Shown piece by piece: positions 3-56,712 of a stretch of 64,000 nucleotides of DNA. The position numbers and the translations under genes were made by a program. Source of the DNA: Eubacteriales Family XIII. Incertae Sedis bacterium (GTDB lineage Bacteria > Bacillota > Clostridia > Peptostreptococcales > Anaerovoracaceae); assembly GCA_031272485.1 (NCBI GenBank), contig JAISTV010000001.1, forward strand, positions 1-64,000, read 5' to 3'. The notes under the pieces were generated by a model. The model did not search any database and was not told the origin of the DNA. It was given only the letters and a program-made list of their open reading frames with translations. Each line of letters starts with the position of its first letter. Position 1 is the stretch's first letter.

Positions 3-1184
3 TTAGCGTCTCTTTCCTTGCATGAAGGGGCGGGCTATTTTGGCTGCGGCTTTCATCCAGGCGTGGTCGAGGTCTTTGCTGGCTTTCTTTATCTCTGCCG
101 GGATGTCTATTTGTTGCGGGCACTTGGTTTTGCAGGCGCCGCAGGATACGCATTGCGAGGCGTAGCCTTTGGTGGGCGAGAGTATGCCGAGGTCGAGCGT
201 GTACTGGAAATCGTTGTAGTGCCGGCTGGTGTCCGCGAGGCCTGTGCCGTTCCAGAAGCGGAACACCGTGGGGATGGCTACGTTCTTCGGGCAGGGTAGG
301 CAGTATTCGCAGCCCGTGCAGGGCACCTTGGTCTTGCTCAGGATGATTTCCTTCGCCTGCGCTATGGCCGCGAGCTCTGCTTCCGTCATGGCGCCTGCCT
401 CCATCTCCGATGCCGTCTTCAGGTTTCCTGTGAGCTGGTCGGGCTCGTTCATGCCCGAGAGCACCGTGAGCACCTCCGGGTGGTTCATGACCCAGCGGAT
501 GCCCCATTCGGCCGGGGTGCGCAGCGGCACCGCCGCCTCGAACACGTCCTGCGCCTCCTTGGGCACCACCGCGAGCTTTCCGCCGCGCAGCGGTTCCATG
601 ATCATGACGGGCATGCCCTTGGCCGCCGCGTGCTTGAGCCCCGCCGTGCCCGCCTGGCGGTCCGTGTCCAAGTAGTTATACTGAATCATGCAGAAGTCCC
701 AGTCATACGCGTCGATAATCTTCTGAAACGACCCGGTGTTGCCGTGGAACGAAAACCCGAAGTTCCGTATCCGGCCCACCGCCTTCTGCTTCTCCGCCCA
801 CTCGAGCACGCCCATCTGCCGGAACCGCTCGAAGTAGTCGAAGCTCGTGAGCATGTGCAGCAGGTAGTAGTCTATGCGGTCCGTGCCGAGCCGCTGCAGG
901 GTGGAATTAAAATACTTATCGAAATCCTCCGCGCGCTTGACCATGAGCATGGGCAGCTTGGAGGTGAGGTTAATCCGGTCGCGGTACGGCCCTACGAGAA
1001 TGTCCGAAAGCAGCACCTCGTTGCCCGGGTAAAACCAAGCCGTGTCGAAATAGTTCACGCCGTTTTCAATGGCTGTATCTATAAGCCGTCGGCACTTCTC
1101 CACGTCCTTCTTGGGTAGGCGCATGCAACCGAAAGCCAGCTGTGATATTCTGTCTCCGTTTTTGGGGTTGGTACGATATATCAT
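3..1184 (-). CDS. Aldo/keto reductase with C-terminal 4Fe-4S ferredoxin-like region
   Basis: AKR-like N-terminus (RISQLAFGCMRLP, YFDTAWFYPGNE); C-terminal CTGCEYCLPCP and CVSCGACKTKCPQ cysteine motifs; SD upstream. Confidence 0.9.
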   Translation of the reverse strand: MIYRTNPKNGDRISQLAFGCMRLPKKDVEKCRRLIDTAIENGVNYFDTAWFYPGNEVLLSDILVGPYRDRINLTSKLPMLMVKRAEDFDKYFNSTLQRLGTDRIDYYLLHMLTSFDYFERFRQMGVLEWAEKQKAVGRIRNFGFSFHGNTGSFQKIIDAYDWDFCMIQYNYLDTDRQAGTAGLKHAAAKGMPVMIMEPLRGGKLAVVPKEAQDVFEAAVPLRTPAEWGIRWVMNHPEVLTVLSGMNEPDQLTGNLKTASEMEAGAMTEAELAAIAQAKEIILSKTKVPCTGCEYCLPCPKNVAIPTVFRFWNGTGLADTSRHYNDFQYTLDLGILSPTKGYASQCVSCGACKTKCPQQIDIPAEIKKASKDLDHAWMKAAAKIARPFMQGKRR

Positions 1185-1235
1185 GGAATCTCTCCTTCCG
1201 CACCTCTATTATACACACATAACCCGCGCCGAAAA

Positions 1236-2276
1236 CTACAAGAATACACGGAACGCCGTAGGCAGCGCATACGCCTCCCGCAGCTCCGCCTCCGTGGCCC
1301 ACACGAGCCCCTCCGAGGGCAGAGCCTCCCGCACCCGCACCTCGTAGGCCTGCATGTGCCAGACCACGTGCGTAAATACATGCTTATGTGACTTGGCAAT
1401 GGCAATGCTGTCAACCTTATAACCTTGACAGGCAAGCAGCGCCGACGCCCGTTCTTCCCGCATAGCCCCTTCGGCGTTCGGAAACTCCCACATGCCCCCG
1501 AGCAGACCGCCGGCGGGCCGTTTACGTACAGCCAGCTTCCCCTCCGCGTGAATCAGAAAGACCGTGCGGCTCTCCACCCGCCGGGGCTTCTTAGGCGAAA
1601 GCACCGGGTAGTCCTTTTGCCTCCCGCCCCTGTAGGCCTTGCACAAACCCGCGAGCGGGCAGGGCGCGCAATCCGGCTGCGTGCCGGGCAGGCACAGCAC
1701 CTCGCCGAGCTCCATGATGGCCTGCGTGAGAATGCCCGGCGAAGGGCAGGTATCATAGACTGTCTGCAGCGCCGCGGTAATCTCCCGCCTCACCTGCGGC
1801 GTGTCCACCGCCTCGCGGATGGCGAGCAGGCGAGCGATCACGCGTAGCACGTTCCCGTCTACGGCCGGCACGGGCAGTCCGAAACAGATGCTGCCGACAG
1901 CCCCGGCCGTGTAGGCGCCCACCCCAGGCAGACGCAGGATACCGGCATAGTCCCGCGGGAACGCGCCGCCGTACTGTTCGCAGATAATCTGCGCGGCCTT
2001 GTGCAGGTTGCGCGCGCGGCTGTAGTAGCCCAGTCCCTCCCAGAGCTTGAGGAGCTTCTCTTCGCTGCAGGCGGCCAGCGCCTCCACCGTGGGCAGCGCC
2101 TCAAGGAAGCGCACATAGTAATCCCGCGCAGCCTCGATGCGCGTCTGCTGGAGCATAATCTCGCTCAGCCAGACGTGATAGGGCGCCGTATCCGCGCGCC
2201 ACGGCAGCGGCCGGGCGTTCTCACGGTACCAGCGGCAGAGGCGGGGTGCAAATTCTTCGGGCAGCTTCCTTTTCAT
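1236..2276 (-). CDS. mutY: A/G-specific adenine glycosylase
   Basis: PLPWRADTAPYHVWLSEIMLQQTRIEAARDYY, LPGVGAYTAGAVGSICFGLPVPAVDGNVLRV; Fe-S CxxxxxxCxxCxxxxxC; start placed at MKRKLPEEF instead of the longer ORF start. Confidence 0.93.
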   Translation of the reverse strand: MKRKLPEEFAPRLCRWYRENARPLPWRADTAPYHVWLSEIMLQQTRIEAARDYYVRFLEALPTVEALAACSEEKLLKLWEGLGYYSRARNLHKAAQIICEQYGGAFPRDYAGILRLPGVGAYTAGAVGSICFGLPVPAVDGNVLRVIARLLAIREAVDTPQVRREITAALQTVYDTCPSPGILTQAIMELGEVLCLPGTQPDCAPCPLAGLCKAYRGGRQKDYPVLSPKKPRRVESRTVFLIHAEGKLAVRKRPAGGLLGGMWEFPNAEGAMREERASALLACQGYKVDSIAIAKSHKHVFTHVVWHMQAYEVRVREALPSEGLVWATEAELREAYALPTAFRVFL

Positions 2277-2353
2277 CCGCATAGTATACCATTTGAAATT
2301 CCCGTCCGTAACGCTCATAATATAGGAAGAGGATAAACGCTGAGGGAGCAGAT

Positions 2354-3061
2354 ATGAATAGCAGCCTGAATTGGGAATACATTTCGCAGCAGCTCACGGA
2401 GGTCACTTTACTGTCGACCGTCGTGCGGCTTCTTCTTGCCGTGGTTCTGGGCGGCATCGTGGGGCTTGAGCGCCGGGCCAAGAGCCGGCCGGCCGGCTTC
2501 CGCACGCACATTCTGGTCTGCGTGGGCGCGTGCTTAGCCATGCTCACGAACCAGTTCGTATACGAGAATATGTCCACGCTCTCCGACCCGACGCGTCTGG
2601 GCGCGCAGGTGATTACCGGCGTGGGCTTCCTGGGCGTGGGCACCATCCTGGTCACCGGCCGTCACAAGATTAAGGGCCTCACCACGGCGGCGGGCCTATG
2701 GGCATCCGCGTGCATGGGGCTGGCCATAGGCATAGGGTTTTACGCGGGCGGCATAATTACCGGCGCGGTGATTTTCATGGCGCTGTTCACGTTCGGAAAA
2801 CTCGAAGACAGGCTCGAAGCCTTCTCCCGGCAGATGGAATTGTACGTGGAGGTAAACTCGGTCAAGGACATGAAGGGTGTGCGCGAAGGGATTCAGGCCG
2901 CCGGCATAAGCATTCACGAAACGCACTTCAGCCAGTCACCGCTCGTGGAAGGCAAGGTGGGGCTGTACTTCATGATGCGGCTTCCCAAGGGTATGAACAA
3001 GGCACAGGCCGTAGGGGTCATAGAAGCGGTGGAAGGCGTGCGCCTCACCGAAGAAATCTAA
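2354..3061 (+). CDS. MgtC/SapB family membrane protein
   Basis: GGIVGLERRAKSRPAGFRTHILVCVGACLAML motif typical of MgtC/SapB. Confidence 0.92.
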   Translation: MNSSLNWEYISQQLTEVTLLSTVVRLLLAVVLGGIVGLERRAKSRPAGFRTHILVCVGACLAMLTNQFVYENMSTLSDPTRLGAQVITGVGFLGVGTILVTGRHKIKGLTTAAGLWASACMGLAIGIGFYAGGIITGAVIFMALFTFGKLEDRLEAFSRQMELYVEVNSVKDMKGVREGIQAAGISIHETHFSQSPLVEGKVGLYFMMRLPKGMNKAQAVGVIEAVEGVRLTEEI

Positions 3062-4125
3062 AATTCGTCATTCATAAAGAGCAGGTCGCTCTTCTTCGCG
3101 TAAAGCATTTTTACTTGACGCACATCTGTGCTTACGGGGCAGATCCACCAGAGGTTCGCCTCTTCGTTTTTCGCGCTCGCCGCGTCTGCGCCGCGCACGC
3201 GCAGGAGTACCGTGTGCTCAAACACGCCGGACAGCACTTCCGTCACCTCGACCGGAACCGAAACATAGTCCGCCGCCTGAGCCGCGGCAGGCTCCTTTTC
3301 CGTGAAGTACCTCGCCCGGATGCCAATGTGGGTGGCCGACTGCGCGCCGGCAAAGCTGCCTGTAAGTTCGTAGCCCCAGTCTGTCGCCACAAGGCGCCCG
3401 TCCCCGCTGCGCGCCAGCCTCGAGAAGTTCTTACAACCCGTGAGCCTGGCCGTGACGGTGTTCCTGGGATGCGCAAACACATCCTGCGTCTTACCCGACT
3501 GCAGGACGCGGCCGCCGTCCACCGTAAGCAGGTTTCCGCAAATGCGGAAGGCCTCGTCGCGGCTGTGCGTGACTAAGATGGCGTCTCCCGGATAGTCCGA
3601 AAGCGTGCGCACCAGCTGCGCCTGCATGTTCTCCCGCAGGTACGAGTCCAGCGCGGAGAACGGCTCGTCCAAGAGCAGCACCTCCGGCTCCGAGGCGAAA
3701 ATCCGCGCGAGCGCCACGCGCTGTTGCTGCCCGCCGGAAATCTCGGAAGGGTAGCGGTCCGCCAGCTCCTCCAGTTCAAAGCGCGCGAGAAGCGGCTCGA
3801 TATTCGCGTTCTTCTTATCCCGCACCGCGGCCAGAATGTTCTTTCGCACCGACATATGGGGGAAAAGGGCGTAGCTCTGAAACAGATACCCCGCGCCGCG
3901 CGCCTGCGGCGGCACGTCTATACCCGCAGACGAATCGAACACAACCCGGTTCCCGATTTTAATCACGCCTTCGCTTGGTTTAACGAGCCCGGCTATGCAC
4001 TTAAGCGTCAGGCTCTTTCCGCTGCCGGACGCGCCCAGAATCCCCAGCGTGCCGCCTTCGGACGTGAAGGAGACCGCAAGCTGAAACCCCTCGTATTCCT
4101 TGCGAATATCTACGTGCAGGCTCAT
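3058..4125 (-). CDS. modC: Molybdate ABC transporter ATP-binding protein
   Basis: Walker A GASGSGKS, signature SGGQQQRVALARI, Walker B; adjacent to modB/modA; C-terminal regulatory domain. Confidence 0.9.
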   Translation of the reverse strand: MSLHVDIRKEYEGFQLAVSFTSEGGTLGILGASGSGKSLTLKCIAGLVKPSEGVIKIGNRVVFDSSAGIDVPPQARGAGYLFQSYALFPHMSVRKNILAAVRDKKNANIEPLLARFELEELADRYPSEISGGQQQRVALARIFASEPEVLLLDEPFSALDSYLRENMQAQLVRTLSDYPGDAILVTHSRDEAFRICGNLLTVDGGRVLQSGKTQDVFAHPRNTVTARLTGCKNFSRLARSGDGRLVATDWGYELTGSFAGAQSATHIGIRARYFTEKEPAAAQAADYVSVPVEVTEVLSGVFEHTVLLRVRGADAASAKNEEANLWWICPVSTDVRQVKMLYAKKSDLLFMNDEF

Positions 4126-4823
4126 GGCGCGCGCCTCCGCTTACGGGCATAGAGCCGGGCAGAAGAGGTGCGCCGCTCCTCGAGCACGAGGCTCAGGAAC
4201 AGCACAAACACCAGTGAGATTAAAACGAGAATGAGCACGTACGTGTACGCCTGCTCCATATTGCCCCCTGACACGGCGCTGTAGATGGCCAGCGGCATGG
4301 TGCGGGTAAGCCCCGGGATATTGCCGGCTATCATAGCTGTGGCGCCAAACTCGCCCAGCCCGCGCGAAAACGCCAGGATGCCGCCCGAGGCAAGGCCCGG
4401 CCGCGCGAGCGGGAGCAGGATGCGCACAAAGATGGCGCGCTCCGGCATGCCTATGGTCCGCGCCGCCTGCAGGTAAACCTCGTCCACCTGCAGGAAGGCC
4501 GCCTTGGCCGAGCGGTACATGAGGGGCAGGGCTATGACCACCGCCGCCACCACCGTGGCCGGCCAGTTGAACACGAGCTTTACGCCTATCTCCCCGAGCA
4601 GCTTGCCTATGGGGCGGTAGACCCCGAAGATGTACAGCAAAAAGAAGCCCGCGACCGTGGGCGGCAGCACCAGCGGCAGGGTAAGCACCGCGTCCAGAAC
4701 CGATTTCAGGACGCGGCTTTTCATCTTATATACGACGTAGGCGAGCAGCGTTCCGATTACGAACGTAAGCAGAATGGCTACCGCCGCCGTCTTCAGCGAT
4801 ATGAGGATGGGGTCGAGGTTCAA
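4122..4823 (-). CDS. modB: Molybdate ABC transporter permease
   Basis: Permease EAA-type loop, GLGEFGATAMIAGNIPG motif typical of ModB; operon position. Confidence 0.92.
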   Translation of the reverse strand: MNLDPILISLKTAAVAILLTFVIGTLLAYVVYKMKSRVLKSVLDAVLTLPLVLPPTVAGFFLLYIFGVYRPIGKLLGEIGVKLVFNWPATVVAAVVIALPLMYRSAKAAFLQVDEVYLQAARTIGMPERAIFVRILLPLARPGLASGGILAFSRGLGEFGATAMIAGNIPGLTRTMPLAIYSAVSGGNMEQAYTYVLILVLISLVFVLFLSLVLEERRTSSARLYARKRRRAP

Positions 4824-4826
4824 GTC

Positions 4827-5675
4827 TTACAGCACCTTGAACCCGGCCTTCTCGAATATGGCCGCCACCTCGTCGCTCTTGAGGAAATCTATGAAGGCGT
4901 CCACCGCCTCCGCGTTGTCTGCGCTCACGGCTTTCAGCTTGGCCACCGGATAGATGACGGGCGTCTGCAGGCTGCCTTCCGGCACCTTGGCTATGACCTC
5001 CACCTTGTCGGAGACGCTGGCCGCGTCCGTGGCGTAAACGATGCCCACTTCCGCGCTGCCTTCCGCAACCCAGTTAAGCACCTCGGTGACGTTCGTGCCG
5101 AGGCTCGCCTTGGCGGACACCGCGTCCCACGTGCCGAGGCTCGTGAGCGCTTCCTGCGCATACTGCCCCGCGGGCACGCTCGCCGGGTCGCCTATGGCGA
5201 TGGTCGCCGCGTCCGTAATGTTATCAAAGTCCGTCACGCTCGTACCGCTGTCCTTGCGGGTAATGAGCACGAGCTCGTTCTCCAGCAGTTCGGTCACGTC
5301 CGCGGAATCTATGTACCCGCCGTCCACGAGCGCCGTCATCTGCTTGGTCGCCGCGGAGAAGAACACGTCTGCCGCGAGGCCTTCCTCGATCTGCGTCTGC
5401 AGCTTGCCGCTGCTGTCATAGGTGGGCACAAACGTCACGTTCGGATATCTCTCGTTAAACAGTGGGATGAGTTCGTCCGTAAACGTCTTCTCCAGACTGG
5501 CCGCCGCCGCGAGCGTAATGGTGCCTTCTGTGTCGTATATGGTTACCTCGACTTCCACATCATCAGTCGAATCCGTGTCCCCACTGTTCTCCTTGCCGCA
5601 ACCGGCAAGCGCAAGCCCCATCACCAACAGGAGGCTCAAGAGAACCGCAAATATTTTCAAATTCAATTTTTTCAT
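4827..5675 (-). CDS. modA: Molybdate-binding lipoprotein
   Basis: Lipobox LALAGCG; LAAAASLEKTFTDELIPLF and AEVGIVYATDA motifs of ModA. Confidence 0.92.
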   Translation of the reverse strand: MKKLNLKIFAVLLSLLLVMGLALAGCGKENSGDTDSTDDVEVEVTIYDTEGTITLAAAASLEKTFTDELIPLFNERYPNVTFVPTYDSSGKLQTQIEEGLAADVFFSAATKQMTALVDGGYIDSADVTELLENELVLITRKDSGTSVTDFDNITDAATIAIGDPASVPAGQYAQEALTSLGTWDAVSAKASLGTNVTEVLNWVAEGSAEVGIVYATDAASVSDKVEVIAKVPEGSLQTPVIYPVAKLKAVSADNAEAVDAFIDFLKSDEVAAIFEKAGFKVL

Positions 5676-5679
5676 TTTC

Positions 5680-6732
5680 CTACTCCATTCCGAATCCGCA
5701 ATTGGGATAAATACAGGTTTCGCACGAAAAGCAAAGCCCTCCGTTGCTCATACGGACAAAATCCTCCTTCCCGAGCCGCAGTCCCGCAAACAGGCGCGGC
5801 AGCAGCAGGTCCATGCAGCTCCGTCTGGAGTGCAGCAGCCCGCCGGGCACGCCCAAGATTATCGTTTCCTTATCCCCCCGCGTGAGGTACGCCATCATGT
5901 ACATGGAGCCCGGCAGCACCGGCGTTCCGTACGTGACCACCTCCGCCCCCGTGTTTCTTATGGCCAGCGGCGTCCGGTCGTCCGGATCCACGCTCATGCC
6001 CCCCGTGACTATGACGAGGTCCGCTCCTTCTTCTATGGCGGCAAGTATGGCCCGCGTGGTGAATTCCGCTTCGTCCGGCACCACAGACTGGCTTACCTCC
6101 TCGTGTGGCAATTCGAACCGCGCAAGGTACCCGCGCACCGCGGCGCCCATGCCGTCCGGGATTCTGCCCTCGTACACCTCGCTGCCCGTGGTCACTATGG
6201 CCACGCGTTTCTTTACGTAAGGCAGGACGCGGAATACCGCTTCCGTGTCAAGCTCCGCTACTTGACGCGCCTGCTCCAGGTTCTTTCTCGAAGTTACAAG
6301 CGGTATGATGCGCATGCCCGCGAGGACGTCTCCCGGTCGCACCGGCGAGAGGTTATGCCGCGCCGCTATGGCTACGTCCGGAATGCGGTTTAACGCGAAG
6401 AGCCGCTTCGTGTCCGAACAGAAGAGGCCATGCGCATTCGCGCGCACGTCTATCCGCCCCTGAAAGACCTCTCCGACCGTAACGTATGGACTTTCCCCGA
6501 ACGTAAGGCCGGCCAGGTATAAAGCCGCGTCTTCCTCGTGCACGTTCTCCTCGTCCTTGTCCTCCCAGACATAGAGGTTCTTCTTTCCTATGTCCAGCAG
6601 CGCCGGGATGTCTTCCTCCCGCACCGTATGGCCGCGGCGGAAAGCCACCTTGCGCTGTTCGCCGGGCACGATCCTGGTTATGTCGTGGCAGAGCGTAAGC
6701 CCCACCGCATCCTGCGTATCAATGGTCTTCAT
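5680..6732 (-). CDS. MoeA-like molybdopterin-binding protein with C-terminal Cys cluster
   Basis: VTGGMSVDPDDRTPLAI molybdopterin-binding motif; C-terminus LCFSCETCIYPNCGFGME. Confidence 0.82.
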   Translation of the reverse strand: MKTIDTQDAVGLTLCHDITRIVPGEQRKVAFRRGHTVREEDIPALLDIGKKNLYVWEDKDEENVHEEDAALYLAGLTFGESPYVTVGEVFQGRIDVRANAHGLFCSDTKRLFALNRIPDVAIAARHNLSPVRPGDVLAGMRIIPLVTSRKNLEQARQVAELDTEAVFRVLPYVKKRVAIVTTGSEVYEGRIPDGMGAAVRGYLARFELPHEEVSQSVVPDEAEFTTRAILAAIEEGADLVIVTGGMSVDPDDRTPLAIRNTGAEVVTYGTPVLPGSMYMMAYLTRGDKETIILGVPGGLLHSRRSCMDLLLPRLFAGLRLGKEDFVRMSNGGLCFSCETCIYPNCGFGME

Positions 6733-6743
6733 GTCTGCTTCCT

Positions 6744-7682
6744 TTAATCACTTGTTTCACTGCGCAGTATCTCTATGCCGTGCCGCAGCGCCGGCATGAC
6801 CGCCTCCAGTCCTTCCCGGATGGCGTTCGGGTTTCCCGGCAGGTTTAGAATCAGCGTGCGTCCGCGTATGCCGCATACCTGCCGGCTGAGCATGGCCCGT
6901 GGGGTGTGCGCAAGCCCTGCCGCGCGCATGGCCTCCGGGATGCCGGGAACCTGCCTCTCGCATATGGCCGCCGTGGCCTCGGGCGTTACGTCGCGGAGCG
7001 AAAACCCCGTGCCGCCCGTTGTAACGATAAGCGGCACGTCCTCGCCGCACCAGGCGAGCAGGCGCTGCTGAATGGCCTGCACCTCATCCGGCACGGTGGC
7101 TATCTGCACCACGTTATAGCCGGAAGCCTGTAGCATCTCTGTGACGAGCGGGCCGCCTTTATCCTCCCGCTCTCCGCGGTAACTTCTGTCGGAGACCGTG
7201 AGCACCGCCGCGGCGATTTCCGTCTTTTGCGGCGCGCCGATGGCGCCGGATATATGAACCGTGTCTCCCGGTTTCACCGTGCCTTCTGCTATCACCTGCG
7301 CAAACACGCCCTCGCGCGGCATGACGCAGTCGCCCACCTGCTTGCGGATGGCGCAGCCCGTGTGGCATTCCTTGCCGATCTGCGTGATACGCAGCAGGAC
7401 GCCGTCCGCTTCGCCAATGCGTATTTCCGTGCCCACGGGCAGGGTGTGCAGCTCGACTCCCTCCGTCAGAATATTCTCCGCGAAGTCGCCCGGCCAGATG
7501 TCCGGCAGCACGCCGCTGAGCTTCTGCGTACTCTCCATGGCGAGCAGGCTTATCTGGCGGTTGAAATCGTCCCCGTGCGCGTCGCCGTCAATCCCGGAAA
7601 CCTGACGGAAATACGCCTCCGGAACGGGGCGCTTTTTCTCGCCTTTGTTTGCGCTTATGCAGACCGCGACTACCGTAGCCAT
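6744..7682 (-). CDS. MOSC domain - MogA/MoaB fusion protein
   Basis: N-terminal MOSC-like (VSGIDGDAHGDDFNRQISLL, GKECHTGCAI); C-terminal MogA-like (AAVLTVSDRSYRGEREDKGGP, LIVTTGGTGFSLRDVTPEA, LPGNPNA). Confidence 0.88.
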   Translation of the reverse strand: MATVVAVCISANKGEKKRPVPEAYFRQVSGIDGDAHGDDFNRQISLLAMESTQKLSGVLPDIWPGDFAENILTEGVELHTLPVGTEIRIGEADGVLLRITQIGKECHTGCAIRKQVGDCVMPREGVFAQVIAEGTVKPGDTVHISGAIGAPQKTEIAAAVLTVSDRSYRGEREDKGGPLVTEMLQASGYNVVQIATVPDEVQAIQQRLLAWCGEDVPLIVTTGGTGFSLRDVTPEATAAICERQVPGIPEAMRAAGLAHTPRAMLSRQVCGIRGRTLILNLPGNPNAIREGLEAVMPALRHGIEILRSETSD

Positions 7683-8143
7683 GTTCCCGACCTCCCGCCG
7701 CTCTTGGAGAGCAGCTTAATATCCGTGATGGCTATATCCCGCTGCATGGCCTTGCACATATCGTAGATGGTGAGCGCCGCCACGCTTGCCGCGGTCAGGG
7801 CTTCCATCTCCACGCCCGTCTCGCCCGTGCACGTTACCGTAGCGCGGATGTCAATGGCAGCGGCCTTAGCATCCACCGTAAAGTCCACGTCCACGCCGGT
7901 AATCAGCAGCGGGTGGCAGAGCGGTATCAGGTCGGACGTGCGTTTGGCCGCCTGTATGCCGGCGATTTTCGCCACGGTGAGCACGTCGCCTTTCTTAGAC
8001 GTTCCGCCCTCTATGGCTGTCAATACTTCGGGGTTGACAAGAACGCGCGCGCCGGCCGTGGCGCTGCGGACGGTCTTTTCCTTCTCAGTCACGTTTACCA
8101 TGCGGGCGTTTCCCGCCGCGTCCAGATGCGTAAGCGTTCCCAT
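7670..8143 (-). CDS. moaC: Cyclic pyranopterin monophosphate synthase
   Basis: LTHLDAAGNARMVNVTEKEKTVRSATA, KRTSDLIPLCHPL, EMEALTAASVAALTIYDMCKA. Confidence 0.96.
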   Translation of the reverse strand: MGTLTHLDAAGNARMVNVTEKEKTVRSATAGARVLVNPEVLTAIEGGTSKKGDVLTVAKIAGIQAAKRTSDLIPLCHPLLITGVDVDFTVDAKAAAIDIRATVTCTGETGVEMEALTAASVAALTIYDMCKAMQRDIAITDIKLLSKSGGRSGTWLR

Positions 8144-8144
8144 A

Positions 8145-9092
8145 CTATCCTCCTATAGCCACCATGCGGCGGCTGCAGGCGCTGCACCCGTCCTCCGCGA
8201 GGCGGTGCCGCCTGGGTTTTCCGGCTATACCTTGCTTTATCGCTTCTATAAGCTGCGCGTCCGAAAGCCCCCGCAGGGGAATCTCCGCCGCGGCGTGCAG
8301 ACAGGATTTGAGAAAGCCGTCCGGCGTGACGCGGATGCGGTTGCACCGCGCGCAGAACGAACGGCTGAGCGGCCGGATGAGGCTCACGGTTCCCGGGTAT
8401 CCGTCTATACGCCAGACCTGCGCGTTTCCCGTCTCGCCCTCGTAGTTCATCCTGCCTATCCGGCGGAAGACGTGCTCGGCCTTCAGTTGCCGGTCCGCCT
8501 GCCAGTCCGCGCTCTCGCCTATGGGCATGAGCTCCAGAAACCGGACGTGGATATGCGCCGATTGGGTGAGCAGCGCAATCTTTTCTATCTCGCCGTCGTT
8601 CACGCCGTTTAGGACCACGCAGTTTATCTTCACGGGGGTGAGGCCGCAGGCAATGGCGGCGCGAATGCCTTCCAGCGTATACTTGAGGCTGCCGCCGCGC
8701 GTAAGCTCTTCGTACAGCGCCGGGTTGAGCGCGTCCAGGCTCACGTTTACGCGGTCAAGGCCGCAGGCTTTAAGCGCTTCGGCTTTCTCCGCGAGCTGCT
8801 GCCCGTTGGTGGTCAGGCAGGTTTCCCGGATGCCGGGCACCGCGGATACACGCCGGACTATTTCTTCTATGCCGCGCCGCACCAGCGGCTCGCCGCCGGT
8901 TATGCGCACCTTGGTTATGCCGAGCGAAGCAGCTGCCCGCACGATGCGCTCCATCTCCTCGACGCGCAGCATGTCCTCGTGGAGGCGCTTTTCCACCCCT
9001 TCTTCGGGCATGCAATACACGCATCGCAGATCGCAGAGATCCGTGACGGAAAGCCTGAGGTAATTCACTTCGCGGCCGTAAGAATCGTACAT
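8145..9092 (-). CDS. moaA: GTP 3',8-cyclase (radical SAM)
   Basis: YLRLSVTDLCDLRCVYCMPEEGV radical SAM motif; C-terminal second Cys cluster (FCARCNRIRVTPDGFLKSCL). Confidence 0.96.
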   Translation of the reverse strand: MYDSYGREVNYLRLSVTDLCDLRCVYCMPEEGVEKRLHEDMLRVEEMERIVRAAASLGITKVRITGGEPLVRRGIEEIVRRVSAVPGIRETCLTTNGQQLAEKAEALKACGLDRVNVSLDALNPALYEELTRGGSLKYTLEGIRAAIACGLTPVKINCVVLNGVNDGEIEKIALLTQSAHIHVRFLELMPIGESADWQADRQLKAEHVFRRIGRMNYEGETGNAQVWRIDGYPGTVSLIRPLSRSFCARCNRIRVTPDGFLKSCLHAAAEIPLRGLSDAQLIEAIKQGIAGKPRRHRLAEDGCSACSRRMVAIGG

Positions 9093-9124
9093 GGAAATAT
9101 TCTACGGTATTCTGTGCAATTATA

Positions 9125-9142
9125 ATGTTCTATATAGAACAT
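9125..9142. promoter_or_regulatory. Perfect 18-bp palindrome ATGTTCTATATAGAACAT, candidate operator in moaA/crp divergent region
   Basis: Sequence equals its own reverse complement; lies between divergent moaA (-) and Crp/Fnr (+); same TGTTCT-N4-AGAACA core recurs at 55138. Confidence 0.75.
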
Positions 9143-9173
9143 TTTCTTATTCTCTGATATGATAGACTACGCT

Positions 9174-9830
9174 ATGGAATATCAGGGGATTATCGATTCA
9201 ACCCTCTTTCGAGGCTTCACAAAACCGGAAGCTGCGCGGGTGCTGGATGCCGCGAAGCCGCAGGCGCATGCCTTCAAAGGCGGCGACGTGCTCTGGCGGC
9301 AGGGCGACAAGGTCACGGGGATAGGCGTTCTCACGGAAGGGACGCTTCTGGGTCGCCGCTACCTGCCGGACGGGAAGGCACTCGTCGCGCGGGTTTATAA
9401 CGCGCCGATTCCCTTTAATCTGGAGGCGGCGGTATCGAGACGGCGGACGACACCTACGTCGGTGGAGGCACAGACGGCCGGCACATACCATTGGCTTCCC
9501 ATGCGTTCTTTATTTGAAAATCAGGATATAGACGAACGGACGGTGCGCCGCCTGCACCAGAACATCCTGGCGCAGATAGCGGACGACGCAATCCGTTTTC
9601 TGAACCGCTCGGACATCCTCACGCAGCGGACGGTGCGCGAGCGGGTTCTCATGTATTTTGAGATTCTGCGCGCGAAACAGGGCAGCGAGGTGAGGACCAA
9701 TATGACCCAGGAGGCGCTGGCGGGCTATCTCGGTGTGGACCGCTCCAGCCTGTCGTGGGAACTGAACGAGATGCGGCGGGAGGGACTCATCGCGTATAAG
9801 CGAAACCGGTATATGCTGCTTTACGATTGA
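9174..9830 (+). CDS. Crp/Fnr family transcriptional regulator
   Basis: cNMP-binding fold N-terminus, C-terminal HTH MTQEALAGYLGVDRSSLSWELNEMRREGLI; start at second ATG (MEYQG) preferred. Confidence 0.88.
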   Translation: MEYQGIIDSTLFRGFTKPEAARVLDAAKPQAHAFKGGDVLWRQGDKVTGIGVLTEGTLLGRRYLPDGKALVARVYNAPIPFNLEAAVSRRRTTPTSVEAQTAGTYHWLPMRSLFENQDIDERTVRRLHQNILAQIADDAIRFLNRSDILTQRTVRERVLMYFEILRAKQGSEVRTNMTQEALAGYLGVDRSSLSWELNEMRREGLIAYKRNRYMLLYD

Positions 9831-11083: not shown

Positions 11084-11159
11084 GGCGCGCCAAAGAAGAT
11101 TCGAACTCCCGGCCTCCACATCCGGAGTGTGGCGCTCTATCCAGCTGAGCTATTGGCGC
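11083..11159 (-). tRNA. tRNA-Arg (anticodon CCG), CCA encoded
   Basis: Reverse complement GCGCCAATAGCTCAGCTGGATAGAGCGCCACACTCCGGATGTGGAGGCCGGGAGTTCGAATCTTCTTTGGCGCGCCA folds as cloverleaf; anticodon loop CTCCGGA. Confidence 0.93.
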
Positions 11160-54179: not shown

Positions 54180-55067
54180 TTATTTTTTCTTGCGGGCGAG
54201 GCGTAGGACTGCTGCGGCCAGTGCCGCGACTACAATCGCGAGGATGGTGATTACGGGGACGAGCGCGCCGGTGCCTTTGCCGCTGTCTGTATTGCCGGCG
54301 GAAAGAGGAACAGCGAGCGATCCGTCCGAGGTGATTGCTTCTTCCGTGCTTTCGATAGCAGAGGCGGTCTGACTGTTTTGAATCGAGCCGCTGCTTGTTT
54401 CTTCGCCTGCGTCCGCGGTTACGCTTTTCTTCTCCGTTTTTTGCGTGGTGTCTGTGGCGGTGTTCGTTACCTCGGTCTTGGCGCTCTGGGTGGGCGTGAC
54501 AGGTGTGGCAGACGTGCCGGAACCGCTGCTGCTGCCCGTATCTCCGGAAGAGGGGCCGGCAGGCGCTGTCACGGTAACGGAAATGCTCGTAGAGCTCGGC
54601 ACGTGTTTTTCGAGCATCGCGTTAATCGTGATGGTTGTGGTGCCAGGGGATACACCCGTGATGCTCAGCACGCCGCCGCTGTAGCTCGCCTGCGCGATGG
54701 AGGAGTTTTGCGACACTGCCGATACCTGCGTCGTGAAGGTTTGATAGGTGGACCCGCCGCAGGTGCACCAACCGTTGGGGTCCTGACAGGTGATGCCGAT
54801 TTCCGCGCCGAATTCATCGCAGCTTTGCGGACATTCCGGCATTCCGCAGCCGGGCAGCTGGGCCTCGGAGGCAGGCGAAACGCTGACGCTTATAGACGCG
54901 CTCTGCCCGCTCGTCATCGTTACCGAGCCCTGCGAAACGGAAATGGCAACGCCCGGAAGATTGAAATAGGCATAGGCAGGCGTGACGAAAGAGAGCAGAA
55001 CAACGACCGAAAGCAGGAGGGCATGGCAGCCCCGTTTGACTTTTTTTCGGAATAATAACTTGTGCAT
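54180..55067 (-). CDS. Exported Ig-like (Big-type) protein with Cys-rich insertion and C-terminal TM anchor
   Basis: SD + signal peptide; VAISVSQGSVTMTSGQSASISVSVSP...GVLSITGVSPGTTTITINAM; CGMPECPQSCDEFGAEIGITCQDPNGWCTCGG; C-terminal TM + RLARKKK. Confidence 0.75.
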   Translation of the reverse strand: MHKLLFRKKVKRGCHALLLSVVVLLSFVTPAYAYFNLPGVAISVSQGSVTMTSGQSASISVSVSPASEAQLPGCGMPECPQSCDEFGAEIGITCQDPNGWCTCGGSTYQTFTTQVSAVSQNSSIAQASYSGGVLSITGVSPGTTTITINAMLEKHVPSSTSISVTVTAPAGPSSGDTGSSSGSGTSATPVTPTQSAKTEVTNTATDTTQKTEKKSVTADAGEETSSGSIQNSQTASAIESTEEAITSDGSLAVPLSAGNTDSGKGTGALVPVITILAIVVAALAAAVLRLARKKK

Positions 55068-55110: not shown

Positions 55111-55180
55111 ATAATAGAGAAATAAAAATCATTTGACTGTTCTAATCAGAACAGATTTTTCTTTTCTCTGCCGATAGAAT
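55111..55180. promoter_or_regulatory. Divergent regulatory region with dyad CTGTTCTAATCAGAACAG (55137-55154) and -10-like hexamers 21 nt to either side
   Basis: TGTTCT-AATC-AGAACA; TAGAAT at 55175-55180 (+) and TATTAT at 55116-55111 (-). Confidence 0.65.
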
Positions 55181-55248: not shown

Positions 55249-56712
55249 ATGAAAATCGCTTTTGGGAAAAGCAGATATTTTTTGTGTATAGTTCTGGGAT
55301 TTGTAGTCGCAGCGTTTACGCTCGCGGCGTACGGGTGCGCGGCGCAGGCGGCAGCGGAAACAACCTCTCCCTTTGTAGAAAAAACTATGGAAGCTACGCG
55401 GACGGAGGGTCCGGAGGATGCTTCCTTTCGGCTTGGCATGCATGAAAGCTATGTAGGGGAGGGGGACTCTCCATATGCAGACGGCGGGCTTCTGTACGAG
55501 CCGTTAATCATTACGGGCGATACGATAGGCGAACGGCAGATTTATTCGGTTCGGGATTTGGAGACCCTTGCCTCCCTGTACCTGTCGACCGATGAGCTAT
55601 ACGCGACCGGTCTGGGCATCCATGAGATGTGCGCTCTTCCGGCCGGCGCGGGTACGGCGGAACTTGCGGGCCTCGACCTGGCGGTTTTCCTTGGGCTCTG
55701 CGGCGCGGCGGACGCGGACGAGGATGCCCGTGTGTACTGGTTTACGGATAGCGGTACGCAGCCGGCCGGTGAGGTTTTACTGACCGATTTGGTCTCTGCC
55801 GAAGAAGGCCATCGCGCAATGCTCGCCTTTGGCGTGTTTGACGCGGTGCCTTTGGTGCGGTCCGCGGACGCGGCGGGCTATGACGCAAGCGCCGGAAACG
55901 CGGGAGGGCCCTTGCTGCTCTGCTTGCCGGCAGGAGATGAGGTATATGCTGTCGCCGACGTCACAAAGCTGATTGTCGGCACGAGAAGTGAAGACCCCCG
56001 TTACGATTTTCACGCGGACGGAGGCGGGGACGCACAGGAACCGGTTCTCACTATCCGGGTCTTTGCAGCGGGCGCCGCGGAAGACAGTACGCCTATTAGC
56101 GTTCTGACCTATACCGCGGCCAATCTGGAGCAATTAGCCGCGACGTTTCCGGAGCACGTTTCGGGCGGGTATTTCGGCACGATAGGCGACAAGGCGAGTA
56201 CGGAGGGCATGGTAATCGGCGGCTGGATTGACTATTACGAGGGGCTGGACTTTGGCTGGTTCCTGCAGGAGCAGGTGGGGCTGGACGCGCTGAGCGGACG
56301 CGCACTTTTGTACGGCCGGTCCGGGGAGGCATATGTTCCGGAGGATGCGGGGGAGCTTTACGGCGAGATTCCCGATCTGTCGTACTTCGCGGAAGCGCCG
56401 GCCAGGCCGGAGGCGTGCTACGTGCTGACGAGGGACGCAGTAGCCATTACGGGCAGCAGGCCTGTACTCGCGTTTTCGAAAAACGGATACCCCTTGCTTC
56501 CGGCACATGAACATGAAAGCGAAGACTATGTCAGCTACAACCAACTGAACGCGGCACTGGAAGCGCTCGGCGTGGCGAGTGAAGTGGGCGTGGTCAAAAA
56601 CAACAAGGGCCCCTTCATTGCCGGCCTCGGAAATCTGGACGGCCTGTACGGCGGCTACAGGCAGGAGACGGGCGGAGAGTGCATACGCATGGATATCTTT
56701 TTATCCATTTGA
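55249..56712 (+). CDS. Exported protein, possibly two molybdopterin-oxidoreductase-like domains
   Basis: Signal/TM N-terminus with AAYGCAA; repeated pattern of IIT..IGERQIYSVRDLETLA.. and LTIRVF..VLTYTAANLEQLA..; no named family certain. Confidence 0.6.
   Translation: MKIAFGKSRYFLCIVLGFVVAAFTLAAYGCAAQAAAETTSPFVEKTMEATRTEGPEDASFRLGMHESYVGEGDSPYADGGLLYEPLIITGDTIGERQIYSVRDLETLASLYLSTDELYATGLGIHEMCALPAGAGTAELAGLDLAVFLGLCGAADADEDARVYWFTDSGTQPAGEVLLTDLVSAEEGHRAMLAFGVFDAVPLVRSADAAGYDASAGNAGGPLLLCLPAGDEVYAVADVTKLIVGTRSEDPRYDFHADGGGDAQEPVLTIRVFAAGAAEDSTPISVLTYTAANLEQLAATFPEHVSGGYFGTIGDKASTEGMVIGGWIDYYEGLDFGWFLQEQVGLDALSGRALLYGRSGEAYVPEDAGELYGEIPDLSYFAEAPARPEACYVLTRDAVAITGSRPVLAFSKNGYPLLPAHEHESEDYVSYNQLNAALEALGVASEVGVVKNNKGPFIAGLGNLDGLYGGYRQETGGECIRMDIFLSI

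Follow-up and report, generated by a model that had tools for sequence, protein, structure and literature searches.

A palindromic operator between divergent moaA and crp genes with putative leaderless promoters in a Clostridiales Family XIII bacterium

In class II activation, as by CRP and FNR, the dyad of the operator is classically centred near -41.5. For Escherichia coli CRP, the operator is TGTGA-N6-TCACA and the ligand is cAMP. As El-Robh and Busby (2002) are cited in PMC3105977 and PMC5499769, E. coli CRP activates divergent promoters from one site. In M. tuberculosis, a single Cmr site activates divergent promoters and represses a second promoter of the regulator's own gene (PMC5499769). 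Bacterial leaderless genes with a TA-like signal carry a -10 element directly before the ATG and have no Shine-Dalgarno sequence (SD); in the survey of Zheng et al. (2011), those of Firmicutes were mainly from Lactobacillales and Mycoplasma (PMC3160421). Mapping of transcription start sites (TSSs) in C. difficile gave only ~15 potential leaderless cases. Operons of the kind described here are controlled by the Moco riboswitch upstream of moaA, also in Clostridia (PMC2408646).

The window analysed here is a stretch of 64,000 nucleotides on contig C20 of a MAG of 1.26 Mb (60.5% complete). The host, an uncultured gut bacterium, is a high-GC (~60%) member of Clostridiales Family XIII, and is placed there because MAGs of the same GTDB family with Crp relatives bear that label; isolate codes suggest that the gut may be that of a termite. 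Within the window, a palindrome lies in the 81-bp spacer between a seven-gene operon headed by moaA and a divergent gene for a Crp-family regulator (hereafter crp):

3058-4125, minus strand: modC-like ATPase, last gene of the operon (profile match)
4122-4823, minus strand: modB (TIGR02141)
4827-5675, minus strand: modA (TIGR01256)
5680-6732, minus strand: moeA-like molybdopterin-binding protein (domain match)
6744-7682, minus strand: MOSC and mogA/moaB fusion (domain match)
7670-8143, minus strand: moaC (domain match)
8145-9092, minus strand: moaA, GTP 3',8-cyclase (TIGR02666, 335 bits)
9092, minus strand: predicted moaA +1, the A of the ATG, with the dyad at -41.5 (from geometry)
9099-9104, minus strand: moaA -10 TAGAAT, 6 nt before the ATG, centre 9101.5, 32 bp from the dyad centre
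9119-9126, either direction: rival -10 ATTATAAT, self-complementary, overlapping the dyad
9124-9143, strandless: operator AATGTTCTATATAGAACATT, a perfect 20-bp palindrome with the core TGTTCTA-NN-TAGAACA, centre 9133.5
9163-9168, plus strand: crp -10 TAGACT, extended (TGATAGACT), 5 nt before the ATG, centre 9165.5, 32 bp from the dyad centre
9174, plus strand: predicted crp +1, the A of the ATG, with the dyad at -40.5 (from geometry, less certain than for moaA)
9174-9830, plus strand: Crp/Fnr-family regulator gene, 218 aa, no cysteine (Pfam HTH_Crp_2, 4.5e-10; orthologues 36-50% identical)

With Cmr at cmr-rv1676, the locus shares a Crp/Fnr regulator and one site between the regulator's own gene and a divergent gene, from which both directions are activated (here as a prediction). 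It differs in its predicted output, two leaderless transcripts, and in its partner, a Moco operon; the likeness is one of layout, operator sequences aside. As with E. coli CRP, one dimer would serve two directions from a class II centre near -41.5, but the operator here is TGTTCTA-NN-TAGAACA, does not match the E. coli type, and has predicted leaderless outputs. Both starts have the form described for leaderless genes with a TA-like signal, although the host belongs to Clostridiales Family XIII, unlike the Firmicutes cases of that survey.

The operon is tightly packed, in the order moaA-moaC-MOSC/mog-moeA-like-modA-modB-modC, and covers molybdate uptake and Moco synthesis. At gathering thresholds, the window has no Rfam match to a Moco riboswitch or any other leader, and the only RNA found is a tRNA. 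In contrast to riboswitch-controlled operons, there is thus no such RNA in a moaA leader, and control would seemingly be exerted at the promoter, by a protein of the Crp type. A xanthine-dehydrogenase-type cluster elsewhere in the MAG (L096; G000 contig C6, about 800-8123) contains the sole molybdoenzymes found in it; this cluster possibly uses Moco from the moaA operon, and no operator match precedes the xanthine-dehydrogenase-type genes of the MAG.

The regulator has a Crp-type HTH (PF13545, 4.5e-10, over the cut-off) and an N-terminal barrel of the cNMP-binding type (PF00027, 2.7e-5, slightly under the curated cut-off), and matches Crp/Fnr structures over its full length in profile comparisons. 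It has no cysteine at all and does not fit the FNR (Fe-S) subfamily. A second Crp-family paralogue, 24% identical, is encoded at L091 (10285-10920, minus strand); its start is closely preceded by GGTTGGATAACCAAC, which resembles a palindrome but differs from the one described here. A tRNA gene (window 11086-11159, minus strand) lies downstream of the neighbour of crp.

A palindrome of 20 bp is reached in 0.06% of local shuffles of the 81-bp spacer (chance ~0.0006). Across 64 kb it is unremarkable, since 7 of 50 Markov-1 shuffles reach such a length, and palindrome length alone was dropped as evidence. A terminator was also rejected, because the flanking genes are divergent. A search of the host's own genome with the core TGTTCTA-NN-TAGAACA (one mismatch allowed) returned two sites only, both inside the window. 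The dyad is most likely bound by a Crp-family protein, and the adjacent regulator is the candidate.

The -10 boxes of moaA and crp are mirror-placed: from the centre of the dyad to that of either hexamer is exactly 32 bp. This is class II promoter geometry on both sides, with the dyad overlapping a poor -35; whichever way the spacer is read, its -35 hexamers are poor, as expected of activator-dependent promoters. The initial annotation had described TAGAAT, 6 nt and ATG at 9092 for moaA on the minus strand, and TAGACT, 5 nt and ATG at 9174 for crp on the plus strand, with no SD at either start. All of these elements are present as described, and the nearest approach to an SD is a weak TGAT upstream of crp. 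That annotation did not contain the equal 32-bp distances, the second operator or the plus-strand TATAAT described below.

We consider it fairly probable that a regulator dimer on the dyad is a two-way class II activator and that the moaA and crp mRNAs are leaderless. The palindrome at 9124-9143 would be the operator of the adjacent regulator, and the bound dimer, acting as a class II activator in either direction, would place RNA polymerase on TAGAAT for moaA or on TAGACT for crp. Transcription of moaA would then start at the A of its ATG, and that of crp at the corresponding A or no more than 1 nt away, so that both mRNAs would be leaderless and translated without SD pairing. The outcome would be positive autoregulation of crp coupled to the molybdate-uptake and Moco operon. 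A given DNA molecule is probably transcribed in only one of the directions at a time, because polymerases placed on both promoters would touch at the dyad. What is observed is the geometry with its recurrence, the presence of the operator beside crp orthologues, and the genome-wide excess of leaderless-type promoters; binding of this regulator, activation rather than repression, and the exact TSSs are inferred. The locus offers a testable case in which an activator site alone would set both transcript starts at start codons.

Against this two-way activation stand the crp spacer, which is 5 nt and not 6, and an alternative crp start. The moaA start at 9092 is fixed, many homologues beginning at the same residue, but that of crp is less certain: an open, in-frame ATG lies at 9159, and the N-terminal lengths of homologues vary. 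We regard it as very improbable that a longer crp transcript is translated from ATG 9159, with moaA alone leaderless. That codon lacks an SD, its use would put TAGACT within the coding sequence and the predicted TSS downstream of the start, and it is the start at 9174 that yields the N-terminal length found in the G020 homologue.

The second operator match lies between divergent genes for surface proteins:

54180-55067, minus strand: surface protein with signal peptide and C-terminal anchor, divergent partner at the second operator (sequence features)
55111-55116, minus strand: -10 TATTAT, 32 bp from the second dyad centre; predicted leader ~37 nt, with SD AGGAGAG
55138-55153, strandless: second operator TGTTCTAATCAGAACA, centre 55145.5
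55175-55180, plus strand: -10 TAGAAT, 32 bp from the second dyad centre; predicted leader ~62 nt, with SD
55249-56712, plus strand: secreted protein of unknown family, adjoining the second operator (sequence features)

Because the genes at this site keep SD leaders (62 and 37 nt), the position of the -10 tracks the dyad rather than the start codon. For the 55249-56712 protein, a sulfite-oxidase-like fold, which would have linked it to molybdopterin, was considered and dropped: Pfam and NCBIfam gave no match, and 60 relatives gave no homologue.

An alignment-based search of relatives' contigs gave 12 loci with crp homologues, and a single-protein query gave none. Four further genera of the family have the operator core next to a crp homologue: G020, G030 and G156, in which it is an orthologue (36-50% identical, with conserved HTH), and G229, in which it is another homologue. 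Over the whole set of sites, -10 scores peak at the 32-bp offset, where 8 of 22 dyad arms have a -10 against a rate of 0.016, a count not attained in 20,000 random shifts. The arms of the window alone (4/4, P = 5e-5) and those of the relatives alone (4/18, P = 1e-4) each have this distance, and further G030 sites have -10s no more than 1 bp from it. Since the 32-bp distance recurs at the second operator and in relatives, the TSS would be predictable from the dyad without reference to the start codon. The same recurrence bears out the earlier proposal that one palindromic operator is common to both promoters, and the motif offers a handle for tracing the regulon across the family.

In no relative examined does moaA stand beside the operator. 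The sites of G030 and G156 precede secreted surface proteins and crp, so that the tie between operator and moaA may be specific to the window's lineage. The only genome of the same genus, G001, has no crp match; only 50 nt precede moaA on its contig, and these contain a TATAAT ~20 nt before the ATG and no dyad. Additional operator copies in G030 (L071, L072, L073 and L063) lie mostly before large secreted proteins, one of them with cohesin domains.

The initial annotation had also named a TATAAT abutting the palindrome (9124-9119, minus strand) as an alternative moaA -10, for which the dyad would be repressive. The hexamer is present there and, because the octamer ATTATAAT is self-complementary, a second TATAAT occupies 9121-9126 on the plus strand; as a repressed moaA promoter, the minus-strand copy is the weaker candidate, with a 20-nt leader devoid of SD and a poor -35. 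Extended to both genes, the proposal makes the dyad a repressor operator, with ATTATAAT as the real -10, leaders of 20 nt (moaA) and 41 nt (crp), and both promoters blocked by the regulator. By sequence, TATAAT is the best of the candidate -10 hexamers, and in G156 the sequence TGATATAAT, on the crp strand, is placed likewise with respect to the dyad. In G229 and G020, moreover, a -10 at 32 bp is absent from the crp-facing arm, and a -10-like sequence lies upstream of the dyad. We nevertheless consider repression of both genes quite unlikely in the window: neither leader holds an SD, the -35 hexamers are poor, and the equal distances of TAGAAT and TAGACT from the dyad would be left unexplained, as would the second operator, which no TATAAT abuts. 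For G229 and G020 themselves, the arrangement looks like repression of crp, and the autoregulation of crp may thus have changed sign within the family.

The TATAAT abutting the dyad may instead be a second, repressed promoter alongside the leaderless ones, as in a mixed mode in which the upstream crp promoter (TATAAT 9121-9126) would be repressed and the leaderless crp and moaA promoters activated. Cmr of M. tuberculosis is a direct precedent (PMC5499769), and both promoter types are found in the window and in G156. The upstream promoter has, however, a poor -35 and a 41-nt leader lacking SD, and its use is only supposed; we hold this mixed mode to be unlikely, and favour activation of two leaderless promoters.

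A -10 at -12 (a spacer of 6 nt) is the spacing that places the TSS at the A of the start codon. In 306 kb of the MAG, ATGs without SD have 10 -10 boxes at exactly this offset against 0.74 expected (P = 7e-9), counts which, as in all these scans, cover every candidate start and depend on a mechanical model of ORFs and SDs; -12 was tested as the offset to which the moaA and crp finding pointed. With ATG and GTG starts taken together, 11 -10 hexamers lie at -12, the peak offset, and starts with SD have no -10 peak upstream in the same 306 kb. crp falls outside the counted cases, given its 5-nt spacing and the scoring of TGAT as a weak SD. Among relatives, G156 (another Family XIII genus, 63% GC) has 7 boxes at -12 against 0.26 expected (P = 1e-8), G014 has 5 against 0.8 (P = 0.001), and G020 has 2 against 0.37; G012, G003, G009, G001 and three order-level relatives have 0 or 1.

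On the strength of the peaks in the MAG and G156, leaderless transcription seems to be a habit of the lineage, common in the host and a relative. moaA and crp would be part of it, as starts without SD have -10s at the leaderless offset. An earlier reservation, that leaderless mRNAs are less common in Firmicutes, carries little weight for this Clostridiales Family XIII lineage, where such starts are frequent by the scans of SD-less ATGs. The placement of +1 at or next to the A of the ATG for both genes gains support, as a prediction, from the same scans and from the conserved dyad geometry. We give even chances to a broader proposal, by which this high-GC Family XIII branch combines routine leaderless initiation with a symmetric two-way class II activator of the Crp family, which has an operator type of its own and a promoter geometry that starts its own mRNA and that of a Moco operon at the ATG, in place of riboswitch control of Moco synthesis. 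By these data, leaderless mRNAs are apparently common in a clostridial lineage, and predictions of gene starts and riboswitches for such genomes should allow for them.

Genes with starts of the leaderless type include mutY and murB, named by profile (window 2276, minus strand, and 17489, plus strand; TATACT or TATAAT, 6 nt, ATG, no SD), dut and addA, named from sequence, and, in G156, dnaE and an FtsK-like gene. A lipid-kinase-like ORF at window 39259 (plus strand) has TATAAT 7 nt before its ATG, and a modB-like gene at L199 (G030 contig C76) has a start of the leaderless type (TACAAT, 6 nt, ATG).
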